From a virus: a DNA stretch of 39,434 bases. Positions 1-30,858 of this stretch are shown here, one piece after another. Position 1 is the first letter of the stretch, and every line of letters begins with the position of its first letter. The stretch spans positions 1 to 39,434 of the IMG/VR virus record IMGVR_UViG_3300032322_002757. The stretch is one strand, 5' to 3'. Both the position numbers and the translations under genes were made by a program. The notes under the pieces were generated by a model. That model made no database searches. It was not told the DNA's origin and worked only from the letters and a program-made list of their open reading frames with translations.

Positions 1-2658
1 AGTAAGGTCGATATTTTTTATAAAAAAAATAGTTCTATAGTAGATGTTATAGAAAATGCTAAAAGAATTTCATCAACTGAAAATATTATTTTTTCTAATC
101 CTCTCTGTAAATTTAATTCTGATATATTTAGAGTTTTTTCTGAACTGCCAAATAATATAATTACCGACGGTAGAGATTATTTTATATTTCACAAATCAAC
201 ATTTTTATCAGATGTTACTAATTTATCGGGAATATTCCCATTAAATAGAAAAAATATAAGTTTGAATGTTAATAAATCAACTATAAATCAAATTAGAAGA
301 GTTATTACCCCCACAAAACAAGAAAATGTAAAGCAAAGAATAATTAACAGACCAGATAACAAAAATACATCATTACAGGCAACTGAAAAAAGAGAAGTTC
401 TAAATAGTAGAAATGTTGAAAAAAAGAAGTTCGTAAAAGACTTAGGACAACCTACAATAATCAAAAGAAAAGGTATCATCCCGGAATCAAATAGTCATTC
501 TAACAATAGGATTAAAAAACTAGATGTAGTAATTGTGTCTGTGAATTATAATGATTTACTGCTTGTCTCATTACAACACAATTCTAAAATATTTGATAAT
601 ATAACCGTTGTTACTTCGAGTGATGATATTCTGTGTCAGAAAATATGTCAGAAATTTGGTGTAAATTGTGTAATTACCGATGTTATGTATGAGGACAATG
701 CCATATTTAATAAAGGAAAAGCTATAAATGAAGGCATCAAAAGTTTGAAAAATCCTGATTTTGTTTTATTGATAGATGCTGATATTGTAATAAAAGATAA
801 AATTGATGTAAATGAGTTAAATGAAAACATTCTGTATTCTTCTGATAGATGGATTTGTAAATCATATAATCTTTATAATCAGTGGCAAGAAGGAACTTTA
901 ACTATTGAGAAAATTGGTAGAAATGAAGGTGATAAAGGTATTGGATTCTTTCAATTGTTTAATATATCAAATTCCAACATCGATAAAGAAAAACCATATC
1001 CAGAGATGTCTAATAACGCAGCCTGGAGTGATTTAGTATTTAGAGATAAATTTGTTATCAGGAACAAAATAGAAAACACTATTATACATTTAGGAGATCC
1101 TTATAAGAACTGGGATGGTAGAATTACAAGAAGATTTTTGACCGATGAACAATTTGATGAAATATTAAACAAAAAATCCACTTTTACCATATGTTCATTT
1201 TACTTCAACTATAATAATGATTGGAGACAAAAGAGAAACTTTATTAAATTTTTAGAACAATGGAAAGGATATTATGATAATATGATTGTTGGAATAGTTG
1301 ATTATGGTGATATTGACTTTGAAATACCTTGTGATAAAATTGTAATTGAAGGTGATGTTAATAAAAGAATATGGTCTAAAGAAATTCTAATTAATAAGAT
1401 AGTAGAAAAAATTGATACAGATTATATCCTTTGGATTGATGGAGATATTATCTATGAAAATTTAGACTGGTTGAATGATTTAGATAATGTGATTGGTGAC
1501 AAAGATTTTGTTCAATTATTTGAAACAATAAATTATTTAGGAGAGAATGGTGAAGTATTAGAATCACATAAATCTTTAGCATCAGATAAGTCATATAATG
1601 TTGACCATTTATTAGGAAAGGGATATAAACCGGGTGGATCTTGGATGACAAGAACTAAATTACTCAAATCAAAACCTTTATTTGAAAAGATGTTAGTAGG
1701 TGGTGGAGACACCATATTATCATATGCTTTATATGGAGTAGAAAATGGTTGGACTTTACAGAAAGTCAAAGAAGGGTCAAACGAGATATATGAAGAAGCA
1801 AAGAAGTGGATTTCAGACTTTGGTAAGAAAAAAGTTGGTCATTTATCTGTGAGCATTAATCATCTTTATCACGGAGATTTAAAGGATAGAAATTATAATG
1901 ATAGGTATAAAAATCTAGAAAATAAATTGGTTAAAAATAAAATAGTAGTTTACACTTGTATATCTGGTAACTATGATAATATTAAAGATATTTTAAATAA
2001 AGAAGAAAATATAGATTATATATGTTTTAGTGATCAAGATATAGTTGATAGTAATTGGAAGGTTAAAAAAATACCTGAATTTTTAAACTATTTAGATGAG
2101 ACAAAAAGAGCTAGATGCTTAAAGATACTACCTCATTTATTTTTACCAGAATATGAGATATCAATATGGATAGATGGAAGTATTGAGGTTTTAGGAAGCA
2201 TAAACAAATTGATATCAGAAAATCTTAATAATTATTTTTCAATATGTAAACACCCAGATAGAACTTGTACTTTTGAAGAAGCGAATTCAGTAATAAGTTT
2301 AAAGAAAGACACTAAAGAAGTTGTAATGGAACAAATGAGCCGATATGAGTCATTAGGATATCCTAAAAACAATGGAATGGTCCAAAGCGGAATCATAATA
2401 AGAAAACATAATGAGGAAGAATGTAAAAAAATTTCTAATAATTGGTGGCCGGAAGTATTAAAAGGATCTAAGAGAGACCAATTGTCTTTCAATTTTTCAA
2501 TATGGAATAAAGAATATAAAATTGACATAATGAGACCATCATTGCTTGTATCTGAGTATTTCCAAATATATACACATACGTCAAAAGGAGAAGAGAAGGT
2601 TAAGTTGAGAAAAAACTATGACAAATTAAAAAACTATATAAATAATATCGAAGTATGA
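1..2658 (+). CDS. Multi-domain glycosyltransferase, 5' end cut by window edge
   Basis: The reading frame is open from base 1, so the gene begins outside the window; the TTG at 262 is only an internal codon. The 885 visible residues hold a tail of an earlier domain (about 1-90), a Lys/Arg/Asn-rich linker (about 90-170), a GT-A domain with a DAD metal-binding motif at 259-261, a second GT-A-like domain starting near 393 with a DGD motif at 480-482, and a third from about 646 with YTCISGNYD and WIDGS (723-727). The third domain resembles the DUF616/TOD1-MUCI70 glycosyltransferase-like family. Such enzymes move sugars from nucleotide-sugar donors to acceptors in the cytoplasm. Acceptor and sugars cannot be read from sequence. 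The stop overlaps the next gene (ATGA), so this is the first visible gene of a glycan operon. The GT-A assignment is firm; DUF616 is from recalled family motifs. Confidence 0.8.
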   Translation, partial: SKVDIFYKKNSSIVDVIENAKRISSTENIIFSNPLCKFNSDIFRVFSELPNNIITDGRDYFIFHKSTFLSDVTNLSGIFPLNRKNISLNVNKSTINQIRRVITPTKQENVKQRIINRPDNKNTSLQATEKREVLNSRNVEKKKFVKDLGQPTIIKRKGIIPESNSHSNNRIKKLDVVIVSVNYNDLLLVSLQHNSKIFDNITVVTSSDDILCQKICQKFGVNCVITDVMYEDNAIFNKGKAINEGIKSLKNPDFVLLIDADIVIKDKIDVNELNENILYSSDRWICKSYNLYNQWQEGTLTIEKIGRNEGDKGIGFFQLFNISNSNIDKEKPYPEMSNNAAWSDLVFRDKFVIRNKIENTIIHLGDPYKNWDGRITRRFLTDEQFDEILNKKSTFTICSFYFNYNNDWRQKRNFIKFLEQWKGYYDNMIVGIVDYGDIDFEIPCDKIVIEGDVNKRIWSKEILINKIVEKIDTDYILWIDGDIIYENLDWLNDLDNVIGDKDFVQLFETINYLGENGEVLESHKSLASDKSYNVDHLLGKGYKPGGSWMTRTKLLKSKPLFEKMLVGGGDTILSYALYGVENGWTLQKVKEGSNEIYEEAKKWISDFGKKKVGHLSVSINHLYHGDLKDRNYNDRYKNLENKLVKNKIVVYTCISGNYDNIKDILNKEENIDYICFSDQDIVDSNWKVKKIPEFLNYLDETKRARCLKILPHLFLPEYEISIWIDGSIEVLGSINKLISENLNNYFSICKHPDRTCTFEEANSVISLKKDTKEVVMEQMSRYESLGYPKNNGMVQSGIIIRKHNEEECKKISNNWWPEVLKGSKRDQLSFNFSIWNKEYKIDIMRPSLLVSEYFQIYTHTSKGEEKVKLRKNYDKLKNYINNIEV

Positions 2659-3203
2659 TTTACTATTCTATACCATATAATTCCGATAAAAATATCGGAA
2701 AATATTACAATGATTTTATGAAAATATTACCAAATGATGATGATTTTGCGTGTTTCGTTGATGGGGATACTATTTTCACAACTCCAGATTTTGGAACAAT
2801 AATTGAAAAAGTAATTGCCGATTACCCGGATATAGATTGTTTCACTTGTTTAACCAACCGAATTGGATGTAAGTGGCAAATTGCGCCGGGTGTTGAACAT
2901 GATAATAATGACATGAAATATCATAGAGATTTCGGAAACTCATTAAAAATAATATTTGGAAGTAGTTGTGAAGATGTAACAAATGTGGGCAAAAATGAAG
3001 CAATGAGTGGTGTTCTAATATTAATAAGAAAAAGATTGTGGAATAAAATAGGTGGATTCGTAGAGAATGGAATGTTAGGAGTTGATAATGATTTACACTG
3101 GAAAATTCAAAAATTTGGTGAAAAAATTTATTTAATGAAAGGATTGTACCTTTTTCACTGGTATAGGTGGCCAAATCCAAAAGATAAAAGTCATCTAATA
3201 TAA
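2655..3203 (+). CDS. Short GT-A type glycosyltransferase
   Basis: A 182-residue protein with a compact GT-A nucleotide-sugar transferase pattern: CFVDGDTIF with the DGD metal-binding motif at about 36-38, and a later GVDNDLHWKI segment (about 141-150) at the place where family 2-like enzymes carry their catalytic acidic residues. It is shorter than ordinary GT2 enzymes (usually 230 or more), so the N-terminal strand region is minimal. The ATG overlaps the TGA of the preceding multi-domain transferase by four bases, suggesting translational coupling and a shared pathway. No signal peptide or membrane segment is visible, so it should act in the host cytoplasm. The donor and acceptor are unknown. 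Confidence 0.7.
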   Translation: MIYYSIPYNSDKNIGKYYNDFMKILPNDDDFACFVDGDTIFTTPDFGTIIEKVIADYPDIDCFTCLTNRIGCKWQIAPGVEHDNNDMKYHRDFGNSLKIIFGSSCEDVTNVGKNEAMSGVLILIRKRLWNKIGGFVENGMLGVDNDLHWKIQKFGEKIYLMKGLYLFHWYRWPNPKDKSHLI

Positions 3204-3216
3204 AAAAAATTCAATT

Positions 3217-3891
3217 ATGTATAAAATTTCAGAGACCTGTCAAATAAAAGATTTGAATATCATATACGAGAAATATTTTAGTACAAATAATGGTACATTT
3301 ATAGAAGTAGGTGCATTTGATGGAGAAACATTTTCTAACACATCAGCTTTGGCAGACAATGGGTGGAAGGGAATTTATGTAGAACCAATAAAAGAACAGT
3401 ATGAGTCATGTAAAGAAAGACACAAAAAAAATAATGTTGTGGTTTTACAAAACTCAATCGGAACTTATGAAGGTGAAATAGAAATATTCATTGCTGGTTC
3501 TTTAACAACAACGAGTTTTGAACAAAGTAAAAGGTACAAAGAGATTGATTGGTCAAAGCATAAATCATTTAACATAAGTAAGTGCAACCAACTAAAGCTT
3601 GAAACTGTTCTACTTAATTATAACATTGAACCTAAATTTGATTTACTATGTGTGGATGTTGAAGGACAGGAATATGACGTTTTCAATTCATTTGATTTAG
3701 AATATTGGAAGCCAAAAATGATAATTGTAGAACTTGAAGACGAACACTCTTCATTTCAAGAATATGAAGAATATGTTAGTGAAGTCAAGAATCTAAGAAC
3801 CAAAATAACTACTTCTGGATATACAGAAATTTATAGAGATAAAATAAATACAATTTTTGTAGAAAAAAATATACCTATCTATGATAACTAA
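3217..3891 (+). CDS. FkbM-family SAM-dependent methyltransferase
   Basis: 224 residues with the FkbM-type class I methyltransferase pattern: the SAM-binding loop EVGAFDGETFSN at about 30-41, the acidic VEP strand end at 55-57, and CVDVEGQEYDVF near 145-156 followed by a hydrophobic strand ending in VELED. FkbM enzymes usually O-methylate sugars or small hydroxyl groups. Inside a run of glycosyltransferase genes the likely job is methyl capping or decoration of the glycan. The gene begins 13 bases after the preceding stop behind an A-rich leader with no Shine-Dalgarno, and its end overlaps the next gene by 11 bases. The family call is firm; the substrate is inference. Confidence 0.85.
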   Translation: MYKISETCQIKDLNIIYEKYFSTNNGTFIEVGAFDGETFSNTSALADNGWKGIYVEPIKEQYESCKERHKKNNVVVLQNSIGTYEGEIEIFIAGSLTTTSFEQSKRYKEIDWSKHKSFNISKCNQLKLETVLLNYNIEPKFDLLCVDVEGQEYDVFNSFDLEYWKPKMIIVELEDEHSSFQEYEEYVSEVKNLRTKITTSGYTEIYRDKINTIFVEKNIPIYDN

Positions 3892-4708
3892 TACAAAAAT
3901 AGGAAATTATGGTCGTTTAGGTAATCAGTTGTTTCAGTATGCAATTTTGATAGTTCTAAGAGAGAAATTTGGTTATGAAATAAAGTTACCAAATTTAGAA
4001 GATAAGAAATGGCACGGTCAAAAGTGTCTCCTAAATAATTTCAATATCAACTATAAAATTATCACACAGAGTGATAAAATCGAACACACATTTGAAGAAA
4101 AAAAAAAGTATGATTTAGATGTATTTAATATCAAAGACAACACTAATATTACGGGGTATTATGGAGACAACAGGTATTTAATTGGTTATGAAAATATAAT
4201 AATTGAAGAGCTAACACCAAAAGATAGTTTTATGATGGAAGCTAAAAATATTGTAAACGAAATTAAAAATAAAAATAAAGATTACAAAATAATATCATTA
4301 CATGTTAGAAGAGGTGATACTGACCTCAGTATATACGAAGGAAAATTAGAAGAGTCGACATGGGGTAAATATTTACATGAATGTAAAAAAATATTTGGTG
4401 TGAATTGTAAGTTTTTAGTATTTACTGGTGGAAACAGAAATGACAACACATCAGAAGACTACAACTGGTGTAGAGAAAACCTCTTAGGCGAAGACTATTT
4501 ATTTTTAGAAGAAAACTCAACTATGATTGATTTTTGTTGTATGTTAAATTGTGATGGTCATGTCCTCGCGCCAACCTCAACTTTGAGTTGGTGGGTCGGT
4601 TTTCTAAATCAGAATAGAAACAAAAAAATAGTAGCTCCAAGATTATATAAATTTATGTCTAAAGAGCCGGAAAAAGGATTTTATCCTGAAAAATTTATAT
4701 TAGTATGA
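3881..4708 (+). CDS. Glycosyltransferase family 11 (alpha-1,2-fucosyltransferase-like)
   Basis: 275 residues with all three hallmark segments of GT11: GRLGNQLFQYA at 11-21, HVRRGD near 141-146 (the donor-binding HxRRGD motif), and the C-terminal APTSTLSWWVGFLN. Known members transfer L-fucose from GDP-fucose to galactose in an alpha-1,2 linkage; length is close to the family's usual 280-300. The start lies inside the end of the FkbM gene and the end overlaps the GT-D gene by four bases (ATGA), so the three are surely co-translated. No GDP-fucose synthesis gene is in view, so the donor probably comes from the host or from genes left of the window. The family is clear; the sugar specificity is assumed from the family. 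Confidence 0.87.
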   Translation: MITNTKIGNYGRLGNQLFQYAILIVLREKFGYEIKLPNLEDKKWHGQKCLLNNFNINYKIITQSDKIEHTFEEKKKYDLDVFNIKDNTNITGYYGDNRYLIGYENIIIEELTPKDSFMMEAKNIVNEIKNKNKDYKIISLHVRRGDTDLSIYEGKLEESTWGKYLHECKKIFGVNCKFLVFTGGNRNDNTSEDYNWCRENLLGEDYLFLEENSTMIDFCCMLNCDGHVLAPTSTLSWWVGFLNQNRNKKIVAPRLYKFMSKEPEKGFYPEKFILV

Positions 4709-5409
4709 TGGAACATAAAGAAGTATACAATGAGATTTTAGATAAATTAAAAAATAAAAATAATTTTAGTTTTGTGAGATGGGGTGATGGAGAATGGTCG
4801 ATTATATTTAAGAACGAAATATACAACCACATCGTAAAAAAATGGGGTGACGTTTTTGAAAATTCAAGAATTGAACTTGTAAAAATATTAGAATCGAAAC
4901 CAGAATACTATTTTGGCATACAAAATTTTGCTTACAGTAAATGGAAGGAAGATATTGATATAGCTACTCTCAATTTTACTAATCTTGTGAATGCGGACAC
5001 ATTACACAATAAATCAAAAAAGGGTGTTATATATGATTTTTTTGAATCACTAAAAGACCGAACTGTAGTAATAGTCGGGCCAGAGTATTTAAACAACATA
5101 AAAGAATTTAAATTTTCACACCACATCATAACACAAGAATATTATGTTTGGGATAAAATAGATGAAATTGAGAATAATATAAAAGATTATTTAAAAGAAA
5201 ACATTAACAAAAATCCAGTATTTTTATATAGCTGTAGCATTGCCGCTAAAATTTTAATACACAAATTTAGAGAACAACAAATAACTCAAATAGATACAGG
5301 GTCATTACTAGATCCATATGTTGGAATGAATTCAAGAAGTTATCATATTGACGTATTAAAAAGGTTAAACATAGATGAGTCAACTTTTAAATATCCAAAA
5401 ATAAAATAA
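4705..5409 (+). CDS. GT-D fold glycosyltransferase (DUF1792-like)
   Basis: 234 residues. Near the N-terminus (23-32) it carries FVRWGDGEWS, matching the R-x-G-D-G-E signature of the GT-D fold (DUF1792), a glucosyltransferase class first seen in bacterial serine-rich adhesin glycosylation. Later segments VVIVGPEYL, VFLYSCSIAAKILIH and IDTGSLLDPYVG fit the second Rossmann-like half, with the typical ending in which the product site is built from an IDxG motif. Two ATG codons (4705 and 4708) are possible starts; the first overlaps the GT11 stop. The GT-D call rests on the RxGDGE motif and overall layout. The acceptor is unknown, presumably the glycan extended by its neighbours. Confidence 0.68.
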   Translation: MMEHKEVYNEILDKLKNKNNFSFVRWGDGEWSIIFKNEIYNHIVKKWGDVFENSRIELVKILESKPEYYFGIQNFAYSKWKEDIDIATLNFTNLVNADTLHNKSKKGVIYDFFESLKDRTVVIVGPEYLNNIKEFKFSHHIITQEYYVWDKIDEIENNIKDYLKENINKNPVFLYSCSIAAKILIHKFREQQITQIDTGSLLDPYVGMNSRSYHIDVLKRLNIDESTFKYPKIK

Positions 5410-5412
5410 AAT

Positions 5413-6042
5413 ATGGCAAACGGAGTATATAAAATAACAGAAGATTTTGAGAAAGCACTATCAGACTACACAGGGGCTCCCTACGTAGTAACAGTTGATA
5501 ACCAAAGTAATGCACTTTTTCTCGCACTTATGTATGAAAAAGTAAATGGAATAGAAATCACTATACCATCAAGAACATATCCATCAGTACCCTGTGAAAT
5601 AATACACGCAGGTGCGAAAGTCAAATTCAAACCGGTAGAAGGTAGAACAATTAAAGGTTCATATCAACTATCACCAACAAATGTTTGGGATTCTGCTTTA
5701 AGTTTTACAGCGAATATGTATAAAGCGGGAACACACATGTGCATTTCATTTACCGGTCCTTATAAACACTTCAAACTTTCAAAAGGTGGAGCTATTTTAA
5801 CAGATAACTATGATGCTTATCTTTGGTTTAAAAGAGCAAGATATTCTGGAAGAAGAGAATGTTCTTACCATGATGACCACTTTGATATGTTAGGCTGGAA
5901 TTTTTATATGATGCCAGAATTAGCTGCAAGAGGACTTCTCTTAATGAATCAGTTTTACAATACAGATGGTACAAAAAAACACAACGAAGATTTAGAGTTA
6001 CCTTATCCTGATTTATCAAAATTTGAAATTTATAAGCAGTGA
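5413..6042 (+). CDS. Truncated DegT/DnrJ/EryC1/StrS-like aminotransferase
   Basis: 209 residues resembling the large PLP-binding domain of sugar aminotransferases of the DegT family. Visible landmarks are DNQSNALFLAL (29-39), the IPSRTYPSVPCEIIHAGA strand-helix, WDSALSF (92-98, where the PLP-binding Asp lies), SFTGPYKHFKLSKGG (112-126, Lys118 the likely Schiff-base residue) and PELAARGLLL (168-177). Ordinary members have about 360-390 residues; the C-terminal small domain is missing here. The stop is clean and overlaps the next start (GTGA), so this looks like a stable short form rather than a recent break. It may make an amino sugar, or be a minimal or non-catalytic relative. An acyltransferase next door fits amino-sugar acylation. 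Confidence 0.65.
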   Translation: MANGVYKITEDFEKALSDYTGAPYVVTVDNQSNALFLALMYEKVNGIEITIPSRTYPSVPCEIIHAGAKVKFKPVEGRTIKGSYQLSPTNVWDSALSFTANMYKAGTHMCISFTGPYKHFKLSKGGAILTDNYDAYLWFKRARYSGRRECSYHDDHFDMLGWNFYMMPELAARGLLLMNQFYNTDGTKKHNEDLELPYPDLSKFEIYKQ

Positions 6043-6638
6043 AAAAGGCCATAATAGGTTCCGGTGGATTCGGAAGAGAGGTAAAGTGTATAATATTAGA
6101 CAATAATCCTAATGAAATTATAGACTTTTTTGTTGATGATGAATACATTGATGAAATATCAAAACCTCTGTCTTCTTTAGACATTAAAGAATATGAGGTG
6201 GTTATTGCTATTGGAAATCCAACTTTGAGAGAAAAGATTTATAACAAGTTACCAAAAGAAACAAAGTATTTTACGGCAATACACAAAAGTGTTCAAATAT
6301 TGGATTCTAATATAGAAATAGGTGAGGGTTCAATAATTTGTTCAAACTCAATCTTAACCACAAATATTAAAATTGGAAAACATACACACTTAAATTTATC
6401 AACAACAATCGGACATGATACATCAATAGGTGATTTTTTTACAACCTCCCCAGGAGCAAAAATTTCAGGAAACTGCGAAATTGGAAACCGTGTCTACTTT
6501 GGTACTAATTCCTCAGTAAGAGAAAAGATAAAGATATGTGATGATGTAACTATCGGTCTTAATTCAGGAGTAGTAAAAGATATCACAAAACCTGGTATTT
6601 ATGGTGGAGTCCCTTGTAAGTTATTAAAACAAATCTAA
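6039..6638 (+). CDS. NeuD/PglD-like sugar O/N-acyltransferase
   Basis: 199 residues with the two-part build of NeuD/PglD acyltransferases: an N-terminal Rossmann-like sugar-nucleotide domain (GSGGFGREV at 7-15; AIGNP near 57-61) and a left-handed beta-helix of hexapeptide repeats from about 85 to 190 (IEIGEGSII, IKIGKHTHL, CEIGNRVYF, VTIGLNSGV). His126 in TTIGHDTSIG is at the place of the catalytic His. The ending YGGVPCKLLK is typical. It should move an acetyl or other acyl group from a CoA donor onto an amino sugar or sialic-acid-like sugar; following an aminotransferase, N-acylation is a sensible guess. The start is GTG at 6039, overlapping the upstream TGA, since no ATG fits the Rossmann motif. 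Confidence 0.83.
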   Translation: MKKAIIGSGGFGREVKCIILDNNPNEIIDFFVDDEYIDEISKPLSSLDIKEYEVVIAIGNPTLREKIYNKLPKETKYFTAIHKSVQILDSNIEIGEGSIICSNSILTTNIKIGKHTHLNLSTTIGHDTSIGDFFTTSPGAKISGNCEIGNRVYFGTNSSVREKIKICDDVTIGLNSGVVKDITKPGIYGGVPCKLLKQI

Positions 6639-6648
6639 CTAATAAAAC

Positions 6649-6656
6649 TATAAATA
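6649..6656 (+). promoter_or_regulatory. Possible late-type promoter box TATAAATA
   Basis: The octamer TATAAATA, identical to the T4 late promoter core, lies 17 bases before the ATG of the GT7-C-like gene and just after the acyltransferase stop. The spacing matches that of the TTTAATATATAA boxes elsewhere in the window. In such AT-rich DNA a single octamer can occur by chance, so this is tentative. Confidence 0.35.
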
Positions 6657-6673
6657 AAAAATAATCATTTTAA

Positions 6674-7435
6674 ATGAATAATCCATATTCCTTTACCTAT
6701 GTTATAGGATACAGACATTTCCCAGATAGACTTAATAACTTAAGAAGAGTTCTTGATTGGGTAAATTGTTTCGCAAACGTCGATGTCATACTAATAGAAC
6801 AAGACAAACACTCTAAAATATCACATCTTAATTTAAGAGCAAGACATATATTTTTGAAAAGTGACAAACCATATAATAAATCCTGGGCTTTTAATGTAGC
6901 TACTACATTAGCAAAGTCAAACATAATCGTTTTTGCTGACTCAGATTTAATTATGAGACCAGAACATTTCATCGAAGGTCTTAAATCTTTAGAACAATTT
7001 GAAATGGTAAATCCATATAAATCTGTAATAGATTTAGATCCACAAGAGTCTATGGTAAGACTTGAAGAGTTAATCTTAATAGATAGACCAGGAAGAGGAG
7101 AAACTGACCATCAAAAAGTACCAATCTGTGGAGGTATTTGTATGTTCAGAAAAGAAGCGATTGTTAGAATTGGTGGTTGGAATGAAGACTTCATTGGTTG
7201 GGGAGCTGAAGATGATTTCGTATCTCACAAAGTACAACAGTTCTTAAACTGGAGGCAAATGGAACACAAATGTTATCATCTTTTCCATAATAGGACTCAA
7301 CCGAATATGGAAGCTTATCAAAGAAATCTACAACTTCTTCAACATCTTGTTGCTTTACCAAAAGCTGAGTTGATTAAAACTATTCAAAAAAATCAACCAA
7401 AAAATGCTATGAAGAATAAGTATGACACTTTCTAA
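6674..7435 (+). CDS. Glycosyltransferase with GT7-C (galactosyltransferase-type) domain
   Basis: 253 residues. The N-terminal half is a GT-A fold with YVIGYRHFPDRL (9-20) and a DSD metal motif at 89-91 (FADSDLIM). The C-terminal half has ICGGICMFRKEAI followed by GGWNEDFIGWGAEDDF (about 167-182), the signature of the Glyco_transf_7C domain found in galactosyltransferase-like and polypeptide-GalNAc-transferase-like enzymes. It should transfer a hexose or N-acetylhexosamine from a UDP donor. The gene is separated from the acyltransferase by 35 bases that hold a TATAAATA box, so it may start its own transcript. The downstream methyltransferase-like gene follows after 15 bases. The family call is strong; the acceptor is unknown. 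Confidence 0.82.
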   Translation: MNNPYSFTYVIGYRHFPDRLNNLRRVLDWVNCFANVDVILIEQDKHSKISHLNLRARHIFLKSDKPYNKSWAFNVATTLAKSNIIVFADSDLIMRPEHFIEGLKSLEQFEMVNPYKSVIDLDPQESMVRLEELILIDRPGRGETDHQKVPICGGICMFRKEAIVRIGGWNEDFIGWGAEDDFVSHKVQQFLNWRQMEHKCYHLFHNRTQPNMEAYQRNLQLLQHLVALPKAELIKTIQKNQPKNAMKNKYDTF

Positions 7436-7450
7436 AAATAAATTCATCTA

Positions 7451-8056
7451 ATGGTAGAAGTTATAGAGCCAAATTCAAAATTAATTGAATATTTCAAAAA
7501 GTCAAAATCTCTTTGGACCGACTTTGATGGAAACAAAAAAGAGTTCCAAACATCTGAAGAATGGCACTACATTCTATCAAATATAGAACAGAATATTTTC
7601 TTACTAAAAAGATTGGAAGAAAGAGGTTTACTTAAATCAGAAAACCATGTTGTTGATTGTGGTATTGGTTTAGGAACAGCTCTATATGATATTTATCTTC
7701 AATCTAAAGATTTTTCAGACAAATCTTTTACATTTACAGGTATTGAAAAACAAAAGAACTATTTGGATTTTTTGAATCAACATCTTATAGAATATTGGAA
7801 TAATGACTTAGAATTGATAGAAGATGATATTATGAACAGAGATTACTCTAAATTTAATATCATTTATACGTTCACACCTTTTCAAAAATTAGATAAGCTG
7901 AAAATTTTCTATAATAAAGTTATCTCTGAAATTGTAGTTGGTTCTGTTTTAATTGAGAATAAAAACGCTGGTTTAGGTCTTCATGGAATTTTGACTGAAC
8001 TACTAGGAATTCAAAAGATAGAATTAGACGATATAGTAGTTTTCAAGAAGATTTAG
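7451..8056 (+). CDS. Class I SAM-dependent methyltransferase-like protein
   Basis: 201 residues. After an N-terminal helical part comes VVDCGIGLGTALYD (about 67-80), a SAM-binding motif I with the expected acidic-Gly-x-Gly arrangement, then TFTGIEKQ (motif II with Glu), LELIEDDIMNRDY and NIIYTFTPFQ, the order of strands in a Rossmann methyltransferase. It lacks the C-terminal segments that would name a family. It is the last gene of the plus-strand glycan block and ends exactly against the stop of the opposing gene (8056/8057), with no terminator space between. Its target could be a sugar, but that rests only on position. Confidence 0.6.
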   Translation: MVEVIEPNSKLIEYFKKSKSLWTDFDGNKKEFQTSEEWHYILSNIEQNIFLLKRLEERGLLKSENHVVDCGIGLGTALYDIYLQSKDFSDKSFTFTGIEKQKNYLDFLNQHLIEYWNNDLELIEDDIMNRDYSKFNIIYTFTPFQKLDKLKIFYNKVISEIVVGSVLIENKNAGLGLHGILTELLGIQKIELDDIVVFKKI

Positions 8057-8596
8057 TTATTTCAATACCACTCTCAATTTATCATACTTTGATAAGAGTT
8101 TGAACATATTTTCCCATTCTTCGTTCGGGTTTTCAACTCTTTTTTGATACCATTTGTCTTTATTTAAATACTCAACAATCATTCCTATTTTGATATCATC
8201 TAATTTTGTTGGCTTCCAGTATCTTACTTGCTCAACAAAAGAAAAACTTAAACCATTATATAAGTATGAAATGTTTTCAGAATCAGTATTGTATAATACT
8301 ATACCTAATGGTTTTTCTGAACCATCATTAAAGAGTTTTTTAGCACCTGTCTCTCCTTCGTATTTAATTATACCACATTCCTGTCCAAAGTGATTTAGGA
8401 AAAAAATTAAATCTTTTCTTAACTCATCATTTGACAAATTACAAGAAGCGAGAACAGATTTCTCATATTGACCTTTGTAATAACCATCTATTGGAATAAC
8501 ATTATACTCTTTAGCCCAAAGCACGGAAATCACATCATCTATCTTAGGAGATGAAACTAAAATGTATTGAATGTTCTTATTGGCAAAATCTATCAC
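8057..8596 (-). CDS. Conserved-looking phage hypothetical protein (179 aa)
   Basis: Function not recognised. The protein starts at a GTG and has two parts: an N-terminal alpha/beta region (IQYILVSSPKIDDVISVLWA, about 9-28, and a GIIKYEGETG / LGIVLYNTD stretch near 75-105) and a C-terminal helical module in which IGMIVEYLNKDKW is followed by EEWENMFKLLSKYDKLRV. The N-terminal layout is loosely like DUF3293-type proteins, but the match is too weak to assert. Three bases before the GTG lies ATTAATATATAT, a near copy of the putative phage promoter box, so the message may be leaderless. It ends tail to tail with the methyltransferase-like gene. Confidence 0.6.
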   Translation of the reverse strand: MIDFANKNIQYILVSSPKIDDVISVLWAKEYNVIPIDGYYKGQYEKSVLASCNLSNDELRKDLIFFLNHFGQECGIIKYEGETGAKKLFNDGSEKPLGIVLYNTDSENISYLYNGLSFSFVEQVRYWKPTKLDDIKIGMIVEYLNKDKWYQKRVENPNEEWENMFKLLSKYDKLRVVLK

Positions 8597-8688: not shown

Positions 8689-9927
8689 TTAAATTAAACT
8701 TAATTCTAAATTCCTTTCTTGTTCAAAAATTTCATTGATTTGACTTTTCCATTTTACAGGAAAAACTATGCTATCATGAACCGTAATCATTTTAATTTCT
8801 GGATATTCTTTCATAATTCTATTGATAACTACATTAAAAATAAATTTTGATTCTGCTCTTTGTAAATCATAAGAAAGTGCTTTATAATCACCTAAATCTT
8901 TTTTATATAGTTTTATAAAGTTATAAATTGTTGGAAACAATTCTGAGAATATTTTATCTGATTTACTTCTTAATGAGTTTCTACCAAAAAGTACTTTATA
9001 AGTCATCTCTTTTACAAACTTTCGGTCATTAGTTTTAATTGAGTTCATTAAAAACTCATAAAAAGTTCCATTGATGGTAAGTTGTCTAAAAAAATTAAAC
9101 TCTTCTTCATTAACCCACTTACTATTAATATCAGAAATTAACTTACAAAGAAAAAATGGTTGTGAATTTTTGATATCAATTTCAGCGGTTGGTTCTCCAT
9201 CAATTAATAAACAATTCTTTCTAATAAAGGATCTAAGTATTGTAAAATTTGTGTGCATTCTACCATACGTATCAAAGTGGAAAAATATATGTTTATTTGA
9301 AATTGATTCAACAGAATAAGCATTTCTATTATAGATGTCTAAGTCTTTACTTCTAAGACTATTTAAGAAAAACATAGACCTTTCGGTATCGATTGTAACT
9401 GAGAATAAGTCATCTACTAATTTCTTTCTAACATCAAAATCTATAGGACTTATGATTTCTTTATCTAAGTCAATTGAATCAATTATCTTTTTCTTAAATT
9501 TTTTCAAAAGAACTTCATCTGAATTTTGATATCTTTCAATTTTTTGCTTAAATACTATCGGATTTAATGAATATGATTTTGATCTCACACCTGCTTTATA
9601 GTTTCTCTCTGTTCTTAAAACATCAATTGATATCAAATATTTTATATATGAACCATAAAGGTAACCATACTTATCTTTAAGAACAAGAGAATGTAAATAG
9701 AAAAGATTTTCCTTCTTCATATAGTATTTTAGAAGAAGATTATGAACTAAGTCAATTACATATGATGATTTTAATTTTTCACCATTAAAGTAGAAGTTTT
9801 TATCATTTTTAAGGTGTTGGATACAGGTGGGTAAAAATTGTAAAGAATTCTTTTTTTTGTTTATTTTATTGTTTATTAATATTGTATAATCCACTGCCTT
9901 AGAACTTATATATTTTTGAGATAACAT
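8689..9927 (-). CDS. Minimal family-A polymerase-like protein (TV-Pol-like)
   Basis: 412 residues. An N-terminal half of about 200 contains a winged-helix-like stretch (about 95-122, KYLISIDVLRTE ... SKSYSLNP). The C-terminal half carries the family-A polymerase palm/fingers motifs in order: EIDIKNSQPFFL (249-260, motif A with metal-binding Asp251), R302-x3-K306-x3-Y310-x4-G315 (motif B-like fingers helix), LQRAESKFIFNVVINRI (355-371, resembling the LQGTAAD helix), and MITVHDSIVFPV (380-391, motif C with His-Asp-Ser). No 5' nuclease or 3'-5' exonuclease domain is present and the size is less than half of Pol I. The GRMHTNFT segment before motif A and the HDS form match the transposon/virus polymerase (TV-Pol) group, predicted to prime and extend. 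The role in replication is inference; the polymerase fold is well supported by four motifs in order. Confidence 0.72.
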   Translation of the reverse strand: MLSQKYISSKAVDYTILINNKINKKKNSLQFLPTCIQHLKNDKNFYFNGEKLKSSYVIDLVHNLLLKYYMKKENLFYLHSLVLKDKYGYLYGSYIKYLISIDVLRTERNYKAGVRSKSYSLNPIVFKQKIERYQNSDEVLLKKFKKKIIDSIDLDKEIISPIDFDVRKKLVDDLFSVTIDTERSMFFLNSLRSKDLDIYNRNAYSVESISNKHIFFHFDTYGRMHTNFTILRSFIRKNCLLIDGEPTAEIDIKNSQPFFLCKLISDINSKWVNEEEFNFFRQLTINGTFYEFLMNSIKTNDRKFVKEMTYKVLFGRNSLRSKSDKIFSELFPTIYNFIKLYKKDLGDYKALSYDLQRAESKFIFNVVINRIMKEYPEIKMITVHDSIVFPVKWKSQINEIFEQERNLELSLI

Positions 9928-9968: not shown

Positions 9969-10160
9969 CTAACTTAAAAATAATTTTTTAATTATTGATT
10001 TTCTTTGTTCTTTCCTGATTTCTCTATTAAGCAATTTTTCAAGTGCAGAGTCATAATGAATATTCAGATCTGAGGCAAGTTCGCGAGTCCAATCAACTCT
10101 TAAGGCTCTTGTCTCAGCCTTAACTTCAACAGAAGTCATATTAAGACTTAAGGATTTCAT
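9969..10160 (-). CDS. Stand-alone fragment resembling mid-section of T4 gp23 major capsid protein
   Basis: 63 residues. From residue 8 the protein reads MTSVEVKAETRALRVDWTRE and continues LASDLNIHYDSALEKLL. This parallels a gp23 segment as I recall it: EAKSRQLK..YSIELAQDL followed by D-x-E-L...E-I...R. The shared pattern is A-x-[ST]-R-x-L-[KR]-x4-E-L-A-x-D-L, then an acidic helix. In gp23 this segment is internal to a protein of about 520 residues; here it is alone, with its own ATG overlapping the upstream stop (TAATG) and a proper stop. No more capsid sequence lies on either side. It could be a decayed duplicate, a recombination leftover, or a small protein interacting with capsid or scaffold. 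The gene is probably real from its coupling; the gp23 link is from memory and moderate. Confidence 0.5.
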   Translation of the reverse strand: MKSLSLNMTSVEVKAETRALRVDWTRELASDLNIHYDSALEKLLNREIRKEQRKSIIKKLFLS

Positions 10161-11503
10161 TATTTAGTAGGAGTTTTTGGTGTGGTTTCTTCTGTTTCAG
10201 TTGGCACTGGTAATTTACCACCTTTGCCTTTTTTCTTTTTATCCGTCTCTGCTTCTTTTTCAAATTCAGAATAAACATCTGGATAAACTTGTTCTTCAGA
10301 GTCCGTGTCGTATTGAATATCAAAGAAATCTCCGAAGTCTAATAACCCTGCTCTACCTAACTCTATTTCATGCATTTTATTTAGATATTTTGAAATGTAA
10401 TTGTCAATACTATCTACAAATTTATTGAAAAGTAAAACCGTGTTTTCGGTAAAAATACCGATTGGTTTTTTTCTCTTTTTATTAAAAGAACCTAATATAA
10501 CTTTGAAAGTATATTCTAACTTGTTATCTTCTTCTATTAATTCTTTAGTTAATTTATTTTTGATTAATTCAGTATTAATTTTGAATTTCTCTTTATCGAA
10601 GAAATCAGGTACCGTAAAGTCAAAATCTAAAATATCTTGCTTAATCTCAGAAACATAAATATTGAATAACTTAGAAATTAGATAGATATAAACTTCATCT
10701 TTCTTTTCACCTTTTAGTTTTATATCCTGAAGATTAATTGATTGACAAAAATTTAAGAAATTTACTAAGATTAATGTGTATATTTCTACAAACTCTGTGT
10801 TATTACTCTCACTCATTCTTTTATAAAGTGGATTTAATAACTGAAAAGAGATATCATTCTCACCAGTTCTAATTATCAACTTTTCAATATTAGTCTGGAA
10901 GTCATCATTCATTAGAAATGAGTTTTCTAATTTAGGATTCAAAATTTTATAGAAGAAATAAGCAAATGACTTTTCACCAAAAACATAATCAAGGTCTTGT
11001 TCAGATGTGTGTATAAAGTATAGTATAGCTTCTTTCATATTTTCAGTAAGTTTTCCACTGAAAATTACAGGAATCATATCGACCTCTAAAAGTCTCGCGT
11101 ATTCGTCCAACTCATCTATATTTAATTCATATTTATTACCCTTAAAAATGCTTGTTAAAACGAGTTGATTCTTTGGAATTCTATTATATTCTATATTTGC
11201 TGGTTGATTGTCTGGAAAATACTCAAAACAGAACCACCACTTTTTATTCAATAGACCCTTAACTCTATCAGACAATTCATTTAAATATTTAAGTGCAGGA
11301 TTGTAATAATTTTGCATCGCTAAATCAACAAGATTTATTGAATCATTAGTTACTGATTTAGGTCTTATCTCAAATTCATTGCCATTCCAATTGACCCATA
11401 TTTTTGAACCTTGTACGTCTTCATAAATAAAAATGTCTTTATTAAATAGACTATTTATGACTTCATCATTATTAATTTGATTTAATGTAATAAGTTTTCC
11501 CAT
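10160..11503 (-). CDS. RNA/DNA ligase-like nucleotidyltransferase with degenerate active site
   Basis: 447 residues. The N-terminal 170 follow the covalent nucleotidyltransferase (RNA ligase) layout: IYEDVQGSKIWVNW near 26-39 where motif I (KxDG) would be, FEIRPKS as motif Ia, WWFCFEYF near 94-101 as motif III, and IEYNRIPKNQLVLTSIF as the following strand pair. At motif I the aligned residues are D-V-Q-G: the catalytic Lys and the Asp are both replaced, so adenylation looks impossible unless another Lys serves. The C-terminal part is helical and unknown, ending in a Lys/Gly/Pro/Thr-rich tail (about 420-447). It has its own AT-rich promoter box 24 bases upstream and couples to the gp23-like fragment downstream. 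A binding or structural role is possible. The fold call is moderate. Confidence 0.45.
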   Translation of the reverse strand: MGKLITLNQINNDEVINSLFNKDIFIYEDVQGSKIWVNWNGNEFEIRPKSVTNDSINLVDLAMQNYYNPALKYLNELSDRVKGLLNKKWWFCFEYFPDNQPANIEYNRIPKNQLVLTSIFKGNKYELNIDELDEYARLLEVDMIPVIFSGKLTENMKEAILYFIHTSEQDLDYVFGEKSFAYFFYKILNPKLENSFLMNDDFQTNIEKLIIRTGENDISFQLLNPLYKRMSESNNTEFVEIYTLILVNFLNFCQSINLQDIKLKGEKKDEVYIYLISKLFNIYVSEIKQDILDFDFTVPDFFDKEKFKINTELIKNKLTKELIEEDNKLEYTFKVILGSFNKKRKKPIGIFTENTVLLFNKFVDSIDNYISKYLNKMHEIELGRAGLLDFGDFFDIQYDTDSEEQVYPDVYSEFEKEAETDKKKKGKGGKLPVPTETEETTPKTPTK

Positions 11504-12388: not shown

Positions 12389-15300
12389 ATGGATAAACAA
12401 CTACTCAAAGCTTTAGATAATTTATCAAACGCGCTGGAAATGATTGCCGAAGCTCTCGAAAAGAAAGATTCAGGTGGTGGTTCGTCAGCGACAACTACAG
12501 CTTTGCAAGGTGGTGACTTCGGAAAATCTCTCGAACAAATAAATCTCGGTATAAAAAGTATTAAGGTTGATACACAACAAATTCTAAAACAACAACAAAC
12601 GATACTTGGTATGCAGAAAAAGAAAGACGATGATAAAAAAACAGGTCTTTTTGGAGAAGCAGGTGAAAATAAAGAAAGAGAAAACAAGATGAAAAAGGGA
12701 ATAGGAATTATTCTCTTAATAGCAATTGCTGTTTTAGCAATAGGCATGGCATTTAAACTTGTAGGTAAAATCGATTTTCTTTCAGTCATAGGCCTTTCAA
12801 TAGCAATATTGGTTATGGCGGTTGCCTTTGAAAAAGTTGCTAAGCTAAAAATATCACTTAGAGAAGCATTTGAAACTTCAGCAGTACTTGTATTTATAGC
12901 AATTGCAATAACAGTCTCATCCTGGATTATGAAGTTGATAGCTCCAATAGGATTCACACAATTCTTAACTGCCGTGTTTATATCCATAACTTTTGCCGCT
13001 ATGTCTAAGTATTTAGAGAATATCTTTTTGGCAACGATTATATTTAAGAGACTAAGAGTTAAATCGACTGACTTAATAAAAACTTTAGTAGCTATCTCAG
13101 CAGCGATAACAGCATCTTCTTGGATAATGAGACTAATTATGCCAATAAGTTTTGCACAGGGTCTTACAGCTATTTTAATTTCAGTAACGTTTGCAATAAT
13201 TGCGATGAATTTTGAAAAAATAGCAATAGGAGTGTCTCTATTTGAAAACACCGGCGTTAAACCTAAAGACCTATTAATGGTTATGCTTGGAATAGCTGCT
13301 GCAATAACATTTTCATCTTGGATTATGAAACTTATAATGCCACTAAGCATTGGTCAATTAATAACTGGAGTTCTAATAAGTACAATGTTTTTGTTAATTT
13401 CCTTCAATCTTGAAAAAATTGCAATAGGTGTTGTAGCTTTTCAGAAGACAGGAGTGAAGGCCAAAGATTTATTACTAGTTATGGTTGGTATAGCTGCTGC
13501 CATAACAGCTTCATCTTGGGTTATGCAACTCATAATGCCTATAGGTCTTTGGCAGTTTGTAACGGCACTTGGAATAACTATTCTTTTTGCAATAATGTCA
13601 TATATAATGCCTGAGTTAGCTGGTGGTATAGCCTTAGTTGGAAGACTTTTAGGAGTCAATAAAGTATTTTTAATTCCGTTAGTAATGGTAGCTATTTCAT
13701 TGGCAATTATGTTGTCTTCATTACTTTTACAATTTACGGCACCAATTCCATTTATGGAGTTATTGAGAATATTAGTATTCAGTGTGGTCTTAGCAATAGC
13801 AACAGTAGTTGTCGGATTCGCAGCGTTCATATTAGCTGTAGTATTCAAATTAAAAAATATTGAAAAAGGCTCAGTGGCTATTGTTATTCTGGCGGTTGCC
13901 ATCATGGCGGCATCACAAATATTAGCTATAGGTAGATATGATGTTTATATAGACTGGAAATGGACTCTACAAACAATGGCTGCCATCTTAGGATTCGGAC
14001 TTGTTGCTTTTCTACTAAACAAAGTCGGTAGTATAAAAGATTACATAATTGGTAGTCTTCTTATACTTGTAGTGGCTGCTGCTTTAATGGTAGTTTCACA
14101 TATTCTCGCAGTAGGTAATTATAAGAATTATCCGTCACTCAAATGGGCCGCTGGTGTAGGTCTGAGTCTATTAGCTTTTATACCAGCCATTTTAGTATTA
14201 GGTCTTGTATCGATGGCAGATGCTGGAGTCAGTACATTATTAGGTTCTCTTATGGTTGTTGTAGTCTCAATTGCAATTATGGCGGTTTCTCATATATTGG
14301 CACTTGGTAAATACGATAAAATTATTCCTCTAAAATGGGTTGCATCTACAGTATTAACGTTACTACCTTTTGCAATTATGGCAGTGGCTTTAGGAGTGAT
14401 TGCACTTACAGGTATTGGAGCGGTTGCCATTGTGGCGGGTTTAGCTTTGACAGCACTAGTAGCAATAACAATAGTAGAAACTGATAAAATAATACGAAAA
14501 GGTAAATATGATAAATATCCTAAATTGGAATGGGTCTTATCTGTAGGGGCAGCAATGGCCGGATTTGGACTAGCCGTTTTAGCACTAGGGTTAATCGCAC
14601 TTACAGGTATTGGAGCCATTGCAATATTGGCAGGTGTAGAATTAGTTCCAATGATTGCTAAAACAATTGTAGATACTGATAAAATAATTAGGAAAGGAAA
14701 TTACAGTAAATACCCAGGCATTAACTGGGCCATATCAGTCGGTGGTCTTATGACCGTATTTGGATTAGCAGTACTAACATTGGGGAGTTTTGTAGTGGGT
14801 AGTTTTGGTCTCGGTTATGTTGCGTTAAAAGCTGGTCAAAGTGCTGTTAAAATAATCGCACAATCAATCGTTGATGTTGCTAATATTTTTAGTAAAAATA
14901 GAGCAGCATTCAAAAATGGACCACCCAAAGCTTGGGCTGAGGGTGTCGGGATAGCAATTGGAGCTTTCTCTCCAGTTTACGGTATGTTACAGAAAAATGC
15001 TACTTTGAAGTTATTTGGTGGTGGTGGAGTTGGACCAAAAGATTTTGCAAGAGCTATCAGAGTAGTATCTGAAGGAATTATAACAGCTGCTGAGATTTTT
15101 GCTAAAAATAAATCCAAATTCGACAAAGGAAAATATCCAAGTGTTGAGTGGGGTAAGGGTGTAGGTGGAGCTATCAATGCATTCGCCCCGGTATTTAAGG
15201 CACTTAATGAAGATACCGGTTGGTTCACATCAGGCGATGATGTGATTGCAAACATTACAAAGGGTATTATTGCGGTGACAAGAGCAATTGTAAGGGTTGG

Positions 15301-16273
15301 AAGTATATTCGGAGGAGCTAAATCAAAATTTGAATTTTACCCTACCTCTAAGTGGTCAGATGGTGTTAAAGTAGCAGTTGAAAAATTTGTCGCTTTATCT
15401 AAATATTTGACAGAAAACGAAGACGTTGAATTCTGGAGAGTTAAAGATGTAGCATATAGAGTAGTAAAAGTAGCACAAATATTCTCCAATAATAAAAGGC
15501 ACTTTGAAATAAAACCTAATCTACTACAAAAGTGGGGAACAAATATTAAGGAGGGTATGAAAATATTCATCAACATGGCTGAATATTTGACACTTAAAAA
15601 AGCAACTCAATTCTATAGAGTTCAAGACATTGCGTATAGAATGGTAAGGGTAGCAAAGATATTTCAAGGGTCTGAAAAAGCGTTTCAAGTTAAGATCGAC
15701 CCAAATTACATGAAAAACATGAGTCAAAATATGCTAGACTTTAACGAATTAGTCAAAAAGTTAGCAGCGAGTGAGTCAGAGGGTGGAGGATTTTTCGGTA
15801 GATTGAGTGACGCAGCTGAAGGTCTAATGGGCACAGATCCAATTTCACAAATTGCTAAGAGAATGATTACTTTAGCGAAAGGTTATGATGCTATGGCGAA
15901 CGCATTGATAAAGTTATCTTTTGCAATGAGAATGTTAAAAGTCGATTCAATGAAGAAGTTGGCAGGTTACACCAGAGCAATGATGGGTAAAAAGGCGATA
16001 GAAGATGAAGGTGAAAAAGGAACAGACCCTCGAGGACCAGAGTTCTCAAAAAGCTTTAGTATGATTGGTAGTAAAAAAGAAACGTCAGTATCACCAGGCG
16101 CAAACCCAATAATGGCAAAAGGAAACAAAAATTCAATTTTTTATGTTTCAGAAAGATTAGAAGAGCTGATAAAAATAATGGCTAATATAGAAAGACAAAC
16201 TTCAACTATTGACGAAGGAATGGAAAAACTGGCTGGTATAAAACCACCACCAGAAAAATCAGACTTTGGTTAA
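12389..16273 (+). CDS. Probable tail tape-measure protein with two repeat arrays
   Basis: 1294 residues. The N-terminus is helical and polar (about 1-105). From about 105 to 860 it is strongly hydrophobic with many membrane-length segments. Two repeat families are visible. The first, about 65-70 residues long, is marked by AAITxSSWIMKLIMPI and recurs near 175, 239, 308 and 372. The second is marked by a Tyr-x-x-Tyr-Pro-x3-Trp core (GNYKNYPSLKW, GKYDKYPKLEW, GNYSKYPGINW, later KGKYPSVEW, FYPTSKW) at about 75-residue spacing. The C-terminal quarter is amphipathic helical. Length, hydrophobic blocks, repeats and position among tail genes fit a tape measure that sets tail length and may form a membrane channel on DNA entry. 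T4 gp29 is under half this size. A large phage membrane protein is the alternative. Confidence 0.6.
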   Translation: MDKQLLKALDNLSNALEMIAEALEKKDSGGGSSATTTALQGGDFGKSLEQINLGIKSIKVDTQQILKQQQTILGMQKKKDDDKKTGLFGEAGENKERENKMKKGIGIILLIAIAVLAIGMAFKLVGKIDFLSVIGLSIAILVMAVAFEKVAKLKISLREAFETSAVLVFIAIAITVSSWIMKLIAPIGFTQFLTAVFISITFAAMSKYLENIFLATIIFKRLRVKSTDLIKTLVAISAAITASSWIMRLIMPISFAQGLTAILISVTFAIIAMNFEKIAIGVSLFENTGVKPKDLLMVMLGIAAAITFSSWIMKLIMPLSIGQLITGVLISTMFLLISFNLEKIAIGVVAFQKTGVKAKDLLLVMVGIAAAITASSWVMQLIMPIGLWQFVTALGITILFAIMSYIMPELAGGIALVGRLLGVNKVFLIPLVMVAISLAIMLSSLLLQFTAPIPFMELLRILVFSVVLAIATVVVGFAAFILAVVFKLKNIEKGSVAIVILAVAIMAASQILAIGRYDVYIDWKWTLQTMAAILGFGLVAFLLNKVGSIKDYIIGSLLILVVAAALMVVSHILAVGNYKNYPSLKWAAGVGLSLLAFIPAILVLGLVSMADAGVSTLLGSLMVVVVSIAIMAVSHILALGKYDKIIPLKWVASTVLTLLPFAIMAVALGVIALTGIGAVAIVAGLALTALVAITIVETDKIIRKGKYDKYPKLEWVLSVGAAMAGFGLAVLALGLIALTGIGAIAILAGVELVPMIAKTIVDTDKIIRKGNYSKYPGINWAISVGGLMTVFGLAVLTLGSFVVGSFGLGYVALKAGQSAVKIIAQSIVDVANIFSKNRAAFKNGPPKAWAEGVGIAIGAFSPVYGMLQKNATLKLFGGGGVGPKDFARAIRVVSEGIITAAEIFAKNKSKFDKGKYPSVEWGKGVGGAINAFAPVFKALNEDTGWFTSGDDVIANITKGIIAVTRAIVRVGSIFGGAKSKFEFYPTSKWSDGVKVAVEKFVALSKYLTENEDVEFWRVKDVAYRVVKVAQIFSNNKRHFEIKPNLLQKWGTNIKEGMKIFINMAEYLTLKKATQFYRVQDIAYRMVRVAKIFQGSEKAFQVKIDPNYMKNMSQNMLDFNELVKKLAASESEGGGFFGRLSDAAEGLMGTDPISQIAKRMITLAKGYDAMANALIKLSFAMRMLKVDSMKKLAGYTRAMMGKKAIEDEGEKGTDPRGPEFSKSFSMIGSKKETSVSPGANPIMAKGNKNSIFYVSERLEELIKIMANIERQTSTIDEGMEKLAGIKPPPEKSDFG

Positions 16274-30516: not shown

Positions 30517-30858
30517 TTATCCCATTTGATTTCTTCTACTCTCTCTAGCACACTTTTCACAACCACTTCCAGCATAAAGATGTGCATTTGGTGTTTGTTC
30601 AAATTCACCGTGGAAAGGACAAACTATAACCACTTTACTTCTACAATTTTCATAGATAACTAGATCATAATTATATTTGAAGTTGTGTAGTATGTTCGAT
30701 TTATCAACAAAATCTTTACTTTTAATTGTTCTTCGTTTAAGAGATTTCAACTCTTTAACAATAGCCTTTTCTTTTGACTTACAATTTTTGTTGCAGAATT
30801 TTCTATCTGGTCTTCCCCACTTAATCTCTTTTTCACAATACCTATAGTTGCACTTCAT
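30517..30858 (-). CDS. Two-zinc-finger protein, DUF723-like
   Basis: 113 residues with two likely zinc sites: Cys3, Cys8, Cys22 and Cys26 (a CxxxxC...FCNxxC finger like those next to HNH-type endonucleases), and Cys80, His83, Cys100 and Cys103 in VVIVCPFHGEFEQTPNAHL, the sign of DUF723. DUF723 units are found in phage and plasmid proteins, often next to or inside homing endonucleases. No nuclease motif is present here, so this may be a DNA-binding protein or a stripped endonuclease relic. It has a promoter-like TTTAATAAATAA three bases before its ATG. Confidence 0.65.
   Translation of the reverse strand: MKCNYRYCEKEIKWGRPDRKFCNKNCKSKEKAIVKELKSLKRRTIKSKDFVDKSNILHNFKYNYDLVIYENCRSKVVIVCPFHGEFEQTPNAHLYAGSGCEKCARESRRNQMG

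Follow-up and report, generated by a model that had tools for sequence, protein, structure and literature searches.

The glycan cassette and its genes

IMG/VR virus record IMGVR_UViG_3300032322_002757 is a linear fragment of 39,434 bases, and the window discussed here is the whole of it. Nine plus-strand open reading frames tile its positions 1-8056, as an earlier sequence-only reading had described; we call these genes, which include several putative glycosyltransferases (GTs), the cassette. Comparison with related phage loci shows that the cassette forms a glycan island whose ends are fixed and whose hypervariable middle is exchanged. The genes and the right flank are as follows, with the family matches that identify them.

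1-2658, plus strand: gene 1, multi-domain GT-A glycosyltransferase truncated at its 5' end by the window edge (PF04765 TOD1/MUCI70, 7.5e-18; phrog_26101, 2e-26; DxD-type motifs); left border gene of the island in relatives
2655-3203, plus strand: gene 2, small GT-A glycosyltransferase (phrog_14179, 5e-30; phrog_26101, second half, 4e-19); 4-nt overlap with gene 1
3217-3891, plus strand: gene 3, FkbM-family methyltransferase (PF05050, 8e-20; TIGR01444 above cut-off)
3881-4708, plus strand: gene 4, GT11, alpha-1,2-fucosyltransferase-type (PF01531, 1.4e-18; phrog_2644, 2e-36)
4705-5409, plus strand: gene 5, GT-D-fold glycosyltransferase (PF22882, 3.9e-9, above cut-off; weak TIGR03728, 2e-6; a 77% identical fragment in locus L102)
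5413-6042, plus strand: gene 6, predicted minimal DegT/PLP sugar aminotransferase of 209 aa (PF01041, 54 bits against a cut-off of 19.8, E 2e-14)
6039-6638, plus strand: gene 7, NeuD/PglD/VioB-type sugar acyltransferase (TIGR03570, 164.4 against a cut-off of 160.8; best PDB match VioB, 2e-29)
6674-7435, plus strand: gene 8, GT7-C glycosyltransferase (PF02709, 3e-9); conserved right anchor of the island, in most syntenic relatives
7451-8056, plus strand: gene 9, class I methyltransferase-like (PF05185, 9.5e-4, below cut-off; DxGIG motif conserved in the family alignment; position)
8057-8596, minus strand: right flank, conserved 179-aa gene at the island border, shared by nearly all syntenic loci

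Family searches agree with the predicted glycosyltransferases of at least four kinds (multi-domain GT-A, GT11, GT-D, and GT7-C) and with the predicted acyltransferase (gene 7; PglD_N plus hexapeptide, 3e-13, in addition to TIGR03570). Two methyltransferase-like proteins had been proposed: gene 3 holds up as an FkbM protein, which would methylate sugar O-positions, while gene 9 falls short of its family threshold (PRMT5, 19.5 bits against 22.9). The description of many overlaps of 4 to 11 bases applies to four of the eight junctions (4, 11, 4, and 4 nt), whereas the other four are gaps of 13, 3, 35, and 15 nt. The gene families support well the idea that the cassette is able to build and decorate a glycan, and nine same-strand neighbors, eight of them clearly in glycan-enzyme families, are by sequence far from a chance grouping. 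No membrane segments were predicted in any cassette protein. Gene 1, gene 5, and a 412-aa gene in the right flank had no meaningful sequence match in the PDB.

Genes 1 and 2 jointly match one 407-aa phage family (phrog_26101). A single gene split by a frameshift is disfavored by their ATGA overlap, by the stand-alone family phrog_14179, and by the same split in locus L093, where gene 2 is 70% identical.

The window belongs to a huge phage lineage. Its 1,324-aa tail sheath protein is identical over its full length at 73% of positions to that of LR745206 (634 kb) and at 64% to that of LR756502 (642 kb), both complete Mahaphages. Gene order to the right of the cassette (open reading frames w9-w17 and w19, counting the first of the window as w0) is conserved in LR745206, with which the window shares long synteny. 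The Mahaphage clade is defined by large terminase phylogeny, and no terminase was recognized in the 39 kb window; kinship with the Mahaphages is drawn from the sheath identity and the synteny with LR745206. Start codons in the window are preceded by A-rich stretches with no obvious Shine-Dalgarno sequence, a pattern that fits Bacteroidota. Al-Shayeb et al. (PMC7162821) count genomes of 634 and 642 kb among the four largest complete phage genomes of their study and assign genomes >634 kb to the Mahaphage clade, with Bacteroidetes as predicted hosts. By protein identity and gene order, then, the window is a 39 kb piece of a Bacteroidota-type huge phage related to these two Mahaphages.

A hypervariable island in related phages

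We collected 45 related loci through the conserved gene at window positions 10160-11503 and 13 more through gene 8, some sharing contigs, for a total of about 58, and labeled them with profiles. The right end of the locus reads, from the border inward, the 179-aa gene, where present a gene 9 homolog and a capsid paralog, and then gene 8. At the left end lie a Zn-protease-like gene (PF05618), a 178-aa gene, and an M42-like peptidase. Wherever both borders of an occupied island are visible, a gene 1 homolog is always outermost on the left and gene 8 closes the right, with 3-10 genes (2.9-8.9 kb) between the ends. The middle genes swapped among loci encode GT2, GT25, LicD, PIG-L, pyruvyltransferase, hexapeptide transferases, and many methyltransferases. 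The nearest relative, locus L028, has gene 8 and the gene 6/7 pair in common with the window, along with part of gene 1, but a different middle.

About 14 loci have an empty island, in which gene 8 begins 42-134 bp from the left border genes. This empty state, with gene 8 kept, is found in the complete genomes LR745206 and LR756502 and in a 508 kb record (L159).

Given the border positions of gene 1 and gene 8 in relatives, the window's island is probably complete except for the 5' end of gene 1. The sequence-only reading had proposed reading the genes left of the window for sugar-nucleotide synthesis. Since the window is the whole linear record, those genes are not directly readable; such a search would probably be empty because, where both island ends are visible, gene 1 is outermost and is followed by the unrelated protease and peptidase genes.

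Gene 8 and its capsid-derived partner

In 17 of about 30 distinct cases, gene 8 is followed immediately by a same-strand gene for a protein of 238-267 aa, and the two genes overlap by 4-32 nt. The product has a weak Pfam match to Gp23 (7e-4), and a profile of 21 members aligns with the full-length major capsid proteins (MCPs; 555-571 aa) of the same phages (hhalign E 3.2e-9). Because this profile found nothing in the PDB by sequence, a fold comparison was needed. In a Foldseek search with the AlphaFold (AF2) model (pLDDT 82, pTM 0.73), all 50 top matches were phage capsid proteins, and VIA aligned it with T4 gp23 (Z 18.2, rmsd 3.1, 202 residues) and the vertex protein gp24 (Z 15.0). On the profile and the model, the partner of gene 8 in relatives is a truncated paralog of the phage's own MCP with an HK97 fold. 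It shares this fold with gp23 and gp24, but it is short and without much of the gp23 protein, occurs alongside a full-length MCP, and has its gene behind that of a GT.

The pairing recurs in several forms. Gene 8 and the capsid paralog adjoin in both complete Mahaphages, LR745206 and LR756502, and in the 508 kb record. In a sister clade (L131, L135, and L137), gene 8 is followed by an N-terminal capsid protein fragment instead (hhalign E 1e-10), and both fragment types share a motif of the form NRxxxIDAI...K, which was not seen in the full-length MCPs. Pairwise ratios of nonsynonymous to synonymous divergence (dN/dS) of the paralog are well below 1 in most pairs, which argues that it is not simply a decaying copy. 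Four other huge phages retrieved by the sheath search (LR756500, LR756501, LR756503, and LR756504) gave no match to gene 8 or the paralog at the thresholds used.

Among cultured phages, the best gene 8 matches are, one cyanophage aside, the Omegavirus mycobacteriophages Courthouse and MiaZeal. This independent case agrees with the pairing: an O-methyltransferase and another GT separate the major capsid gene from the gene 8 homolog, which comes third after it. In Courthouse the homolog is gp17 (26% identity over 57%), three genes after the MCP gp14. The two settings are alike in placing phage GTs and a methyltransferase beside capsid genes. The set described here is larger, adds sugar amination and acylation, and is built as a swap-in island, with a truncated capsid paralog that overlaps the GT in relatives.

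Three unusual arrangements of gene 8 or capsid-derived genes were also observed. In L137 (10806-11072), an 88-aa gene after gene 8 fuses a capsid-like N-terminus to the peptide KYISPGVYIRDVDSSIY, which resembles the start of the window's tail sheath, KYKRPGIFIEEFDQSVI, as in a capsid/sheath chimera. In a 436 kb relative, gene 8 precedes an N-terminal capsid fragment, and about 200 kb from it (L158, 9056-9808) there is an intact capsid paralog of the C-terminal type, adjoining an 816-aa protein with a signal-peptide-like start. In L108 (13997-14914), an opposite-strand gene akin to the window gene at 30517-30858 sits exactly between gene 8 and the capsid paralog with a 4-nt overlap, an insertion comparable to that of a homing endonuclease at a conserved site.

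The amino-sugar gene pair

The earlier description of gene 6 as aminotransferase-like stands for its family, DegT, but not for its size: at 209 aa it is shorter than the full two-domain chain of about 370 aa, and its AF2 model (pLDDT 86.6) spans the PLP domain. The best Foldseek match is the PLP domain of GDP-perosamine synthase (E 3e-8; TM 0.62 by query, 0.37 by target). Asp93 (PLP-binding) and Lys118 (Schiff-base), the latter aligned with the DegT family lysine, are invariant in 39 homologs, including paralogs at 46-48% identity. Genes 6 and 7 resemble the GDP-perosamine synthase and PglD/VioB pathway enzymes in PLP-domain fold, Schiff-base lysine, and acyltransferase family, and depart from them in the shortening of gene 6.

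Relatives of gene 6 occur in 506 viral contig stretches, the best 80 of which, at 84-92% identity, were used for neighborhood counts. In 72 of these 80 loci a VioB/PglD-like acyltransferase lies within three genes downstream, directly next to the gene 6 homolog in 43. Across phages, gene 6 has a dN of about 0.06 and a dS above 1.3 (saturated), and it is under strong purifying selection. In bacterial genomes, a scan with two peptide patterns found the minimal DegT in nine contigs of metagenome-assembled genomes, several phage-like by gene content and one (L149) bacterial-looking.

The minimal DegT genes of this phage group do not form one clade in the best tree, and since the approximately unbiased test does not reject one clade (p 0.198), we do not claim a transfer into this clade. 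The 79% identity of gene 6 to its counterpart in Flavobacterium phage immuto does suggest exchange between phages. In immuto, as in the window, the minimal DegT directly precedes a pilin-glycosylation-type acyltransferase among GTs; unlike the window, immuto is an unrelated 160 kb phage with a full-length transaminase and an NDP-sugar epimerase, and no gene 8/capsid pair was seen there.

GDP-mannose 4,6-dehydratase (GMD), which could supply the pair, is not in the 39 kb window. A GMD that passes its model lies beside a GDP-fucose synthase-like gene in the 436 kb relative L131, about 190 kb away from the island; this relative also carries the gene 6/7 pair. GMD was found at locus L007 as well, and a GMD sequence cluster is present in 19 of the 80 minimal-DegT loci. 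Gene 6 may aminate GDP-4-keto-6-deoxymannose (or a host dTDP/UDP analogue) ahead of N-acylation, and gene 4 would use GDP-fucose.

Related sugar genes were noted in two further settings. In another phage lineage (L003, L006, L013, and L015), the island that holds the minimal DegT pair neighbors DnaJ-like, prohead, and major capsid genes, and NeuB-family and CMP-sugar cytidylyltransferase-like genes accompany it; these phages may carry a route to nonulosonic acid. At locus L143, the 436 kb relative has a 16 kb cluster in which GMD and GDP-fucose synthase occur together with UDP-galactopyranose mutase, FkbM, GTs, and two ketoacid dehydrogenase subunit-like genes.

What the island may glycosylate

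With moderate confidence, we favor the interpretation that this island of a Bacteroidota huge phage glycosylates a virion protein, the capsid being the favored acceptor, in the host cytoplasm during assembly. A 4-keto-6-deoxy nucleotide sugar, made by the host or by a phage GMD elsewhere in the genome, would be aminated by gene 6 and N-acylated by gene 7. The soluble GTs (genes 1, 2, 4, 5, and 8) would assemble a short glycan including fucose and the amino sugar, and genes 3 and 9 would methylate the glycan or its acceptor. Gene 8, the sole GT kept by nearly all relatives, may prime or attach the sugar on a capsid protein, which in many relatives would be the truncated paralog whose gene comes next, and the exchanged middle genes would diversify the surface glycan. 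The data establish the gene families, the borders of the island, its modular exchange, a minimal aminotransferase that keeps its PLP residues, and the coupling of gene 8 to capsid-derived genes in relatives. We infer the substrates, the order of transfer, the glycan, the acceptor, and the effect on and benefit for the phage.

The sequence-only reading had left the target between a virion protein and the host surface. An effect on host O-antigen, capsule, or glycoproteins through host pathways, blocking superinfecting phages, seems unlikely to us, even though O-antigen and capsule loci typically contain DegT, VioB-like, GT11, FkbM, and pyruvyltransferase genes and the swapping of gene content resembles that of O-antigen loci. 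The cassette encodes no membrane protein, and neither phosphoglycosyltransferase (PF02397), WecA-type enzyme (PF00953), nor flippase (PF01943) was found in 26 related phage records, in searches whose controls were positive in 9, 12, and 13 of 14 genomes. Although host enzymes could be used, this makes a glycan transferred to protein in the cytoplasm more likely than a lipid-linked one for the surface, and the coupling of gene 8, the fixed terminal GT, to a capsid paralog in relatives likewise points to the virion. Within the virion, the enlarged sheath or giant fiber had been suggested as acceptors. Unusually large tail proteins do lie within 30 kb in the window, and mycobacteriophage tail tube subunits, as well as capsids, are reported to be glycosylated (Freeman 2023, cited in PMC12619734). 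Still, no gene order or sequence links the cassette to tail genes and the conserved partner gene is capsid-derived. We found no specific support for sheath or fiber and regard the capsid as the better candidate; the chance that the glycan goes on another virion protein (the 1,324-aa sheath, a 1,917-aa fiber/baseplate-like protein, or the tail tube), with the capsid link incidental, appears slightly lower again than that of a host-surface role.

Two other explanations strike us as very improbable. Phage GTs are able to attach sugars of diverse kinds to DNA (work cited in PMC12619734), and the GTs here could in principle hypermodify phage DNA; the thymidylate synthase near the locus in relatives, however, has a canonical LPFN motif and passes the thymidylate synthase model, giving no sign of a hydroxymethylated base, and sugar amination, acylation, and a capsid partner are atypical of DNA modification. 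The cassette might also be transient cargo that was taken up from surface-polysaccharide loci of bacteria and does little for the phage, as its swapping or absence in close relatives and a split pyruvyltransferase in L028 would allow. The low dN of gene 6 against saturated dS and the retention of gene 8 and gene 1 in every occupied island are hard to reconcile with such cargo.

Several observations weigh against capsid glycosylation as we propose it. The capsid paralog is absent from the window itself (six-frame search, best E 1.7), where gene 9 occupies its position, as it does in L088, L113, and L115; L089 has both genes. Several relatives that bear gene 8 (G006, 597 kb; G003, 249 kb; G028, 118 kb) have only a full-length MCP and no paralog in their records, so the gene 8/capsid coupling, though common, is not obligatory. 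In isolated phages, the closest homologs of gene 8 reach an identity of only about 24-26%. Gene 6 is without the small C-terminal domain, its aminotransferase activity being a prediction, and host lipid-linked machinery could be used instead.

A more specific proposal treats the GT and the truncated MCP paralog as one conserved module of two genes in huge phages. Within the capsid lattice, the paralog would act as a targeting subunit or as an acceptor dedicated to the glycan, and the adjacent plug-in islands would give each phage a different sugar coat. We put this forward as a tentative idea that may well prove wrong.

Other features of the window

Rfam and tRNA scans of the window found nothing. 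The gene at 12389-16273 encodes a 1,294-aa protein that has many hydrophobic stretches and matches no family; it is kept in the clade, its length varying from about 890 to 1,490 aa in relatives. The 412-aa flanking protein (8689-9927, minus strand) is also conserved in the phage clade and has no Pfam, PHROG, or PDB match; its motifs AEIDIKNSQP and TVHDSIVFP resemble polymerase family A motifs A and C, and it may be a very small polymerase-like protein.

Relation to known systems and implications

Phage glycan clusters and virion glycosylation are already known kinds of systems, although virion glycosylation is documented in few phages. The published precedent is the glycans reported on mycobacteriophage capsids and tail tubes (Freeman 2023, through PMC12619734 and PMC11256854). 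In Mimivirus, a nine-gene cluster makes the fibril glycans on the particle surface (PMC10117803). Like the island, that cluster combines a sugar aminotransferase, an N-acetyltransferase, several GTs, a pyruvyltransferase (here in relatives), and a nearby methyltransferase; unlike it, the window has no 4,6-dehydratase and a minimal aminotransferase, and the genome is that of a tailed bacterial phage.

As far as we searched, three features are new: a plug-in island of Mahaphage relatives whose ends are fixed, the coupling of its fixed GT to truncated capsid paralogs, and the wide occurrence of the minimal aminotransferase/acyltransferase pair. No earlier description of either the island or the GT/capsid coupling turned up in the literature searched, whose coverage was partial. 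If our interpretation is correct, some of the largest phages would carry a modular locus for an exchangeable sugar coat, together with an acceptor derived from their capsid protein, a phage parallel to the fibril glycans of giant viruses. It would also provide biochemists with a very small PLP sugar aminotransferase and explain many orphan GT clusters in aquatic jumbo phages.

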